This document shows positions 61,530 through 63,331 of a stretch of 64,000 nt of DNA, piece after piece (the first letter of the stretch is position 1; every line of letters starts with the position of its first letter). This DNA comes from Tepidanaerobacteraceae bacterium (lineage in GTDB: Bacteria > Bacillota > Thermosediminibacteria > Thermosediminibacterales > Tepidanaerobacteraceae). The notes beneath the pieces were generated by a model. The model saw only the letters and a list, made by a program, of their open reading frames with translations. It was not told where the DNA came from and searched no databases. The translations under genes and the position numbers were made by a program. The DNA lies in contig JANLFP010000007.1 in the NCBI GenBank assembly GCA_024655905.1, positions 62,001 to 126,000 of the forward strand. Reading direction: 5' to 3'.

Positions 61530-61895
61530 ATGGAAAACATTAATTTTGACGATAAATTAGTGAGTACAGCCATGTCGATTATTATACATGCAGGCGATGC
61601 AAGAAATTATATCAAAGAGGCGTTGGATTTTATAAGTCTTTATGATTTTGAAAACGCAGAAGAGAAACTGAGACAAGCGAATGAGGAAATATCAATTGCA
61701 CATAAAGCGCAGACCGATATGATTCAGGGTGAAGCCCAGGGTAAAGGAATTGGCTATTCTTTATTATTTACCCATGCGCAGGATACGCTGATGACCATAA
61801 AAAGCGAATTGAACATTTCAAGACAACTGTTAAAGATATTCAAGTCATTGGATGAACGAATTTCCAGGATCGAAAAAATGAGGTGTAAAGAATGA
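61530..61895 (+). CDS. PTS lactose/cellobiose-type EIIA
   Basis: 121 residues of helical-bundle EIIA-Lac. The phospho-His is His82 in [13 protein letters not shown], and [19 protein letters not shown] is the usual first helix. Extra residues at the N-terminus are few, so the length is close to normal. It takes phosphate from HPr and gives it to EIIB. The stop overlaps the start of the GH1 gene by four bases. The ribosome site before ATG 61530 is weak (GAAAGG). Confidence 0.94.
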
Positions 61896-63331
61896 AAAAA
61901 ATCACGGGATTTCCAGAGAATTTTCTTTGGGGAGGAGCAATTGCTGCAAATCAGGCTGAAGGGGCTTACGATGCAGGAGGAAAAGGGATGTGCGCTGCGG
62001 ATATTCATGCGTATAATCCGAATATAGACCGCAAAGAACTGCGCACCGGGGAAGTATCTCTGTCAGAAATTGAATTTGCATTAAAAGATAAAGAAAATTA
62101 TTACCCGAAAAGATATGGCATCGATTTTTATCATAGGTATAAAGAAGATTTGGCATTAATGGCTGAAACAGGGATGAACTGTTTCAGGACTTCGATCAAT
62201 TGGGCAAGGATTTTTCCGAATGGTGATGAATCAGAACCTAATGAAGATGGTTTGAAATTCTACGATGATTTATTTGATGAAATAAGAAAAAACGGCATGG
62301 AACCTCTGATTACATTGTCTCATTATGAAATGCCTGTTAATCTATCGCTCAAATATGGCGGATGGTACAATCGCAAACTGATCGATTTTTTCACTCGCTA
62401 TTGTGAAGTGTGTTTCAGACGCTACAAGGACAAAGTCAGGTACTGGATTTTAATCAATCAAATCAATTTAATTTCTTCCGAATCCTTCAATGCATTGGGA
62501 ATACCAAGCGATATGGTAGATAATCTCGAACAGGCAAAGTATCAGGGAATTCACCATGAATTTGTTGCATGTGCAAAGGCTGCAAAAATTGCACATGAGA
62601 TCGACCCGGATTTTAAGATCGGCATGATGCTAAGCCACGGCATTGTCTATCCGGCTACATGCAAACCCGAAGTCATCCTGGCTACCTTGAAAAAGAATCA
62701 AATGCAGTACTTTTTTGGAGATGTTTTGTTAAGGGGAAAATATCCGGGATACAGCCGGCGCTTCTTCAATGAAAAAAATATAACGATTAACATGGAACCA
62801 GGCGATGAAGAAATAATTGCTGAAAATACTGCGGATTTTCTGTCATTCAGCTATTACTATACAAAAATCAATTCTGCGGAAAATTGGGCTGATTTACATG
62901 ATACATCGAAAAATCCATATTTAAAGAGCTCAGCGTGGGGATGGGATATCGACCCCATAGGGTTAAGGATTGCCTTAAACGAATATTATGATCGATATGA
63001 AAAACCGATTATAATAGCTGAAAACGGGATCGGTGCTCTGGACAAGATAGAAAGCGACGGTTCAATTCATGATGATTACCGCATCGACTATTTGAAGAAG
63101 CACATCGAACAAATGAAGGAAGCAGTAAAAGATGGCGTAGAAGTGATTGGCTACTGCCTTTGGTCGCCCATCGACATTGTAAGCTGTTCCACCGCTGAGA
63201 TGTCCAAACGCTACGGTCTGATTTATGTAGACCTTGATGATTTTGGAAGGGGGACCGGAAAACGTATAAAGAAAGATAGTTTTGAATGGTATAAAGGGGT
63301 GATACAGTCCAACGGAGAAAATTTGGATTAA
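61892..63331 (+). CDS. GH1 6-phospho-beta-glycosidase-like enzyme with Gln in place of the acid/base Glu
   Basis: 479 residues. [16 protein letters not shown] opens the GH1 barrel, [16 protein letters not shown] is a substrate loop, and Glu377 in [11 protein letters not shown] is the nucleophile. The acid/base motif, normally TxNE, reads [11 protein letters not shown], so residue 190 is Gln (codon CAA at 62459-62461). The phosphate-binding end [17 protein letters not shown] is the 6-phospho form. Loss of the acid/base Glu is also the defining change in plant myrosinases, which cleave thioglucosides. The enzyme should therefore act on glycosides with good leaving groups, or have an altered role. 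It is co-operonic with the PTS. Confidence 0.9.

Follow-up and report, generated by a model that had tools for sequence, protein, structure and literature searches.

The gene at 61892-63331 (+ strand) of the window, by which we mean the whole 64,000-nucleotide stretch of Tepidanaerobacteraceae DNA analysed here, encodes a glycoside hydrolase family 1 (GH1) protein in which the catalytic acid/base glutamate is replaced by glutamine (Gln190). Judged by sequence comparison and phylogeny, such Gln-type enzymes form a distinct, monophyletic bacterial GH1 subfamily, which probably has an altered catalytic mechanism and an unusual substrate. The leading reading, to which we give an even chance, is that the window protein would be an active 6-phospho-beta-glucosidase for substrates with activated leaving groups, in which Glu197 would serve as a carboxylate within the pocket, either in aglycone binding or as a substitute acid/base.

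Gln190 and the Gln-type relatives

The open reading frame translates into 479 amino acids with zero internal stops, and the product, a 6-phospho-beta-glycosidase of the Gln type, matches PF00232 (Glyco_hydro_1; 1.4e-124) with 416.5 bits against a gathering score of 22.6. The codon at 62459..62461 (+ strand) is CAA, and residue-by-residue alignments to 6wgd, 3qom, 3pn8 and 4f79 place Q190 of 'INQIN' under the E of 'FNEIN'; Gln190 falls in the acid/base Glu column also when aligned to E. coli K-12 BglA and AscB. The sequence-only reading, which had called this codon a Gln at the acid/base position and proposed an alignment with 6-phospho-beta-glucosidases as the check, is thus borne out by the codon itself and by the alignments to solved structures and to BglA and AscB. 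The enzyme therefore lacks the acid/base Glu in the NE motif that defines GH1 enzymes, myrosinases being the known exceptions. That reading had also considered that another Glu might take the place: none aligns in the acid/base column, but a new one, Glu197, is found seven residues on.

A sequencing error or a recent mutation would need only one base, since the Gln codon turns into one for Glu when its first base is changed from C to G. The chance of this is negligible, and the explanation is refuted by 16 further Gln-type orthologues; with the window's own these make 17 distinct members from several phyla with an identical Gln, so the possibility raised at the outset, that orthologues all keep Glu, is rejected.

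These relatives came from a scan of genome contigs that yielded 80 loci. Gln occupies the acid/base position in a protein of Brevibacillus laterosporus that is 68% identical to the window enzyme, in relatives of 60-59% identity from a Spirochaetaceae bin, a Streptococcaceae bin and a second Brevibacillus copy, and in further proteins down to 53% (a Lachnospiraceae bin); the nearest Glu-type relatives, at 58-59%, are from Paenibacillus. Records in a plasmid collection add Gln-type proteins of Niallia taxi, Enterococcus gilvus, Enterobacter ludwigii and Listeria monocytogenes. When 400 genomes of the Brevibacillus class were screened with a DNA pattern encoding W-I-x-x-N-Q-x-N, 6 proved to have a Gln-type GH1; a similar pattern applied to 399 genomes of the window's phylum picked out 2, the window's own among these. 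Most of the other matches to the NQ pattern, in Bacilli as well as in that phylum, lie in genes other than GH1. The motif is absent from the other 25 of 26 genomes in the window's family and class and, because close kin lack it, the window gene was probably acquired through transfer.

Clustering left the 17 distinct full-length Gln-type members, whose hosts include Bacillota, a spirochaete, an Enterobacter plasmid and Listeria. Residue 190 is Gln in all 17 and Glu in 49 of 49 Glu-type relatives. A maximum-likelihood tree was built from these 66 proteins with the Gln column left out, and all 17 Gln-type rows fell on one side of a branch with 97% bootstrap and 80% SH-aLRT support, the Gln-type rows having been found in part by motif and the Glu-type rows being those closest to the query. 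The tree needs a single change of state between Gln and Glu, as low a number being reached in 0 of 500 shuffles, and repeated independent gain of Gln is rejected. Members of the clade come from Bacillota, Spirochaetota and Pseudomonadota, a mixture that points to gene transfer between lineages.

Within the clade there are two main subclades. Brevibacillus (L147, L148) and genome G665 (L141) each carry a tandem Gln-type GH1 pair with one gene from each subclade, and two tandem GH1 genes stand behind one PTS in several Bacilli (L147, L148, L141, L140); in Brevibacillus and G665 one transporter may feed two enzymes that lack the acid/base residue. Another tandem arrangement is found in genome G745 (L131), where a core member of the clade is accompanied by an outer Gln-type GH1, an early branch with the motif YWIIFNQLNS and Asp at the +7 position.

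Active-site residues and the carboxylate at position 197

Apart from residue 190 the catalytic apparatus is conserved. The nucleophile Glu377 (codon GAA, 63020..63022, + strand) lies in the ENG motif and is invariant in 66 of 66 sequences, and the 6-phosphate-binding segment Ser431-Cys432-...-Lys439-Arg-Tyr441 (63182..63214, + strand) has the Ser-Lys-Tyr site (S431, K439 and Y441) in 17/17 Gln-type members, in keeping with the earlier claim that nucleophile and phosphate site are intact. N189, R99, H144, Y322 and W424 are likewise invariant within the clade. Because nucleophile, glycone and phosphate residues do not vary, the active site is under selection rather than in decay. The same invariance, in all 17 members, weighs against a pseudo-enzyme that, by binding phosphorylated sugar, senses for or regulates its own PTS. 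Loss of the acid/base residue and the tandem GH1 gene pairs of several loci would fit such a role, but in the Brevibacillus and G665 pairs both genes encode the Gln type, and most loci have no GH1 beside the PTS other than the Gln enzyme, making a pseudo-enzyme improbable.

An AlphaFold model of the window enzyme is confident throughout (mean pLDDT 94.2), and its best PDB matches are the 6-phospho-beta-glucosidases 6wgd, 3qom and 3pn8. A Trp at the so-called Trp/Ala switch marks 6-phospho-galactosidases, and a small residue (Ala or Met) 6-phospho-glucosidases (PMC10360150). The window enzyme has Cys432 there, a small residue and not Trp, and for this reason the substrate sugar is likely of gluco-configuration; Cys is found at this position in 15/17 Gln-type members and Ala in most Glu-type ones. 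In fold (TM about 0.92), nucleophile, phosphate site and small switch residue the enzyme resembles E. coli BglA and AscB, to which it is 50-51% identical, and the structures 6wgd, 3qom, 3pn8, 2xhy and 4ipl. Unlike GH1 6-phospho-beta-glucosidases, it has Gln for the acid/base Glu, the new Glu197, Tyr323 for Met and Cys432 for Ala. This distance is also visible in profile scores: against four NCBIfam 6-phospho-beta-glucosidase models the four Gln-type members that were scored stay below every cut-off (the window enzyme with 597.8/623, 586.6/639, 563.6/624 and 512.8/686 bits), whereas one Glu-type relative exceeds two of these cut-offs. Taken from sequence and model, the protein is a GH1 enzyme that probably works like a 6-phospho-beta-glucosidase but is a separate variant.

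When the 17 Gln-type and 49 Glu-type proteins are compared over 479 positions, exactly one conserved charge is lost, at 190, and one is gained, at 197. Glu197 (codon GAA, 62480..62482, + strand) is a clade-specific carboxylate at the +7 position, in the aglycone pocket; Gln-type members have Glu in 15/17 cases, Asp in one (L131) and a gap in one (L089), and Glu-type relatives mostly have Ser, Gly, His, Ala or Phe, with Glu in 2/49. Other signatures of the clade are N200, Y323 and C432. Position 197 corresponds to F198 of maize Glu1, R194 of Sinapis myrosinase (1myr numbering checked) and E194 of the Spodoptera beta-glycosidase Sfbetagly, all of which are listed as aglycone-binding (PMC4013033; PMC1781453).

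The paired loss and gain of charge raises the possibility, which we hold only tentatively, that residue 190, at the end of strand 4, has ceded its role as acid/base, or at minimum that of base in deglycosylation, to loop residue 197 in the aglycone pocket. In the full form of this idea Glu197, in the loop after strand 4, would carry out all proton donation and abstraction, and ordinary O-linked 6-phospho-beta-glucosides would be hydrolysed. The exchange of a single charge for another agrees with it, as does the contact of position 197 with the aglycone; Glu at 197 in the two Glu-type relatives means that the new acid could have preceded loss of the old one, and the Asp of L131 fits as well. 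This full form is nonetheless unlikely. The outer Gln-type member L089 has Gln190 but lacks residues 195-197 and hence any acid in the loop, and with neither carboxylate present it indicates that loss at 190 and gain at 197 are not strictly required to go together across the Gln family. Moreover, F198 of maize and E194 of Sfbetagly have been described as aglycone-binding residues and not as acids, and Glu197 might not reach the glycosidic oxygen.

The PTS operon, its control and its surroundings

The GH1 gene is the last in a set of PTS genes of the lactose/cellobiose family, all on the + strand: EIIB (59821..60135; PF02302, 3.7e-17), EIIC (60122..61402; PF02378, 7e-26, with a LacE-family match to TIGR00410 of 6.9e-50 that is below cut-off) and EIIA (61530..61895; PF02255, 1.3e-29), whose stop codon and the start codon of GH1 overlap in ATGA. 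A phospho-glycosidase thus stands beside Lac-family EIIA, EIIB and EIIC. The order IIB-IIC-IIA-GH1, with a syntenic EIIB, is found in 14/16 Gln-type loci, where the IICs are 33-63% identical to the window's, so that Gln is kept in orthologues with the same operon, as the sequence-only reading had asked. Relatives of EIIC occur in 15/16 Gln-type loci. The exceptions are the locus of the Streptococcaceae bin, with a more distant IIC, and that of Enterobacter, where the EIIC is of the Glc superfamily and an OprB porin is present. Glu-type relatives are mostly beside bgl-type EII, and their Lac-type IIC, where present, is 24-28% identical. Distances among GH1 and EIIC proteins are weakly correlated (rho 0.34; 107/2000 permutations as high). 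Decay of the gene, already thought unlikely from its full-length product and ordered operon, is ruled out by the invariant active-site residues together with the conservation of these operons.

Neighbouring genes that might point to the substrate encode the OprB porin (Enterobacter), HPr (the spirochaete) and a membrane protein (three Bacilli loci), none of them decisive. Across the Gln-type operons there is no conserved gene for another metabolic enzyme. This last point also bears on the idea of a retaining phosphorylase or transglycosylase, in which an anion (e.g. phosphate) or another acceptor, not water, would intercept the glycosyl-enzyme. Retaining glycosidases with an engineered acid/base mutation accept small anions, and a neutral residue favours an anionic nucleophile; on the other side, Glu197 would put a negative charge near the acceptor side and a 6-phosphorylated sugar gains little from phosphorolysis, and with no partner enzyme conserved in the operons this activity is very improbable.

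Upstream of the operon lies a gene for a LevR-type regulator (56618..59404, + strand), with a sigma-54 activator domain, two PRDs and an EIIA-man domain by Pfam and a DagR-like NF047795 match below cut-off, which is the probable activator of the PTS-GH1 operon. Thirteen Gln-type loci have an MtlR/LicR-like PRD regulator instead of a LevR-type sigma-54 activator. A candidate sigma-54 (-24/-12) promoter, TTGGTATGCTTTTTGCT (59658..59674, + strand), precedes EIIB; identified by consensus match, it has one mismatch to TGGCANNNNNNTTGCW and is the sole such match in its intergenic region; over both strands of the entire window, chance alone would give 13. The genome encodes sigma-54 (PF04552, 2.5e-62). 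An inverted repeat, GTATCGTAAA-N20-TTTACGATAC (59569..59608), is by its position a candidate activator site. Control by sigma-54 and this activator is thus a consensus-level reading.

Directly upstream of the LevR-type regulator is an apparent N-acetylmuramic acid recycling operon (51684-56174), consisting of genes for an RpiR-like regulator, a MurP-like EIIBC, the 6-phospho-N-acetylmuramidase MupG (Pfam MupG_N, MupG_C) and a MurQ-like etherase. The GH1 operon is immediately followed, from 63637 to the window end (L087:13638-14288), by a likely type II toxin-antitoxin pair, a Phd/YefM antitoxin (PF02604) and a small protein that appears RelE-like by eye. Past the window end, about 1.3-3.2 kb downstream of GH1, lies a decayed bgl operon (L087:14587-16534) with a BglG-like PRD protein, a GH1 of which the C-terminal half is left (58% to the window enzyme) and an EIIA-glc gene; a small fragment of a Glu-type GH1 is present in another frame (L087:15146-15325).

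Proposed mechanism and comparison with myrosinases

From the operon, the EIIABC would import a beta-glucoside and phosphorylate its glucose at O6, and Ser431, Lys439 and Tyr441, conserved here and with a role taken from the known family, would hold the phosphate. Glu377 would then attack C1 and expel the aglycone with no proton from residue 190, for which reason the leaving group of the natural substrate is expected to be an activated one. Water would release glucose-6-phosphate; Gln190 could position that water but not deprotonate it. Glu197, in the aglycone pocket, may bind a hydrogen-bond-donating or positively charged aglycone. Alternatively, it may act as a base after the aglycone has departed, comparable to free ascorbate, which is held to act as base in plant myrosinase. 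Against this reading count L089, with neither carboxylate, the two Glu-type relatives that have Glu at 197 as well, and the neighbouring genes, none of which identifies an aglycone. Candidate substrates, offered as speculation, are desulfo-glucosinolates, glucose esters, glucosides of anthocyanidins or other acidic phenols, and pyridinium N-glucosides. Our search of the open-access literature found no paper on the biochemistry of the Gln-type subfamily. The same substitution in a 6-phospho GH1 enzyme, Gan1D E170Q (4ze5), is described as a catalytic mutant, but it was made in the laboratory and represents no natural lineage.

Plant QE-type myrosinases (Sinapis 1myr/1e4m and the Arabidopsis-like 7z1i) likewise have Gln at the acid/base site, as the sequence-only reading had stated, Q187 of 1myr being in the matching column. 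These enzymes have a Glu nucleophile (PMC4013033; PMC6691170), and the window enzyme has the same combination. It departs from them at +7, where Glu197 stands in place of R194 of 1myr, an aglycone-binding residue of the plant enzyme (PMC4013033). Gln-type enzymes differ from myrosinases further in being bacterial, in having a 6-phosphate site and in being fed by a PTS, and their Gln state arose separately, within the 6-phospho clade of bacteria. The sequences therefore support a myrosinase-like absence of the acid but not glucosinolate specificity, because the plant residue at +7 is basic and that of the clade acidic. The earlier proposal of phosphorylated thioglycosides or other activated glycosides thus survives, as the leading idea, for a leaving group that needs no acid, and is not supported for glucosinolates.

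A bacterial myrosinase proper, hydrolysing 6-phosphorylated glucosinolates as originally proposed, would have in its favour the Glu-to-Gln change of the QE-type enzymes (1myr Q187; PMC6691170) and the reported routes for sinigrin through a PTS and a 6-phospho-beta-glucosidase in Companilactobacillus farciminis (PMC8660893). The CfPttS-CfPbgS system likewise combines PTS uptake with a GH1 6-phospho-beta-glucosidase (PMC8660893), but its PTS is of the fused bgl type, and CfPbgS shares 48-50% identity with BglA and AscB, which are Glu-type. In E. coli O157:H7, BglA and AscB have been tied to glucosinolate breakdown (PMC8660893); those of K-12 are Glu-type by alignment, and bacterial glucosinolate systems of PTS and GH1 therefore seem not to need Gln. 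With the Arg at +7 replaced by Glu, no new conserved basic residue in the Gln clade in the comparison of 17 with 49 sequences, and hosts found without a link to Brassica plants, such an enzyme is hardly to be expected here.

A further counterpart is the IIB-IIC-IIA-GH1-PRD locus of Listeria monocytogenes (L095), which has a Gln-type GH1 in the same operon but belongs to the other Gln subclade. By synteny we take it to be lmo0914-lmo0918, with lmo0917 as its GH1. Expression of lmo0917 is raised in soil extract (PMC3179493), and the literature that we found on the locus consists of expression data. The Listeria locus (L095:4028-9405) adjoins a Vga ABC-F gene.

Acid/base loss in GH1 is well known for plant myrosinases. 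The enzymes described here show this loss in a bacterial lineage that extends over several phyla and has its own transporter, which argues that the Gln state is stable and selected. The subfamily lets one ask, in a natural system, how a retaining glycosidase functions when its acid/base is missing and whether the pocket may regain a carboxylate elsewhere; if the move to residue 197 were true, nature would have produced a retaining glycosidase whose acid/base was relocated or had a built-in substitute. There is also a warning for annotation, as such enzymes, presumably including lmo0917 by synteny, are labelled ordinary GH1 or 6-phospho-beta-glucosidase, when their substrate is probably unusual.
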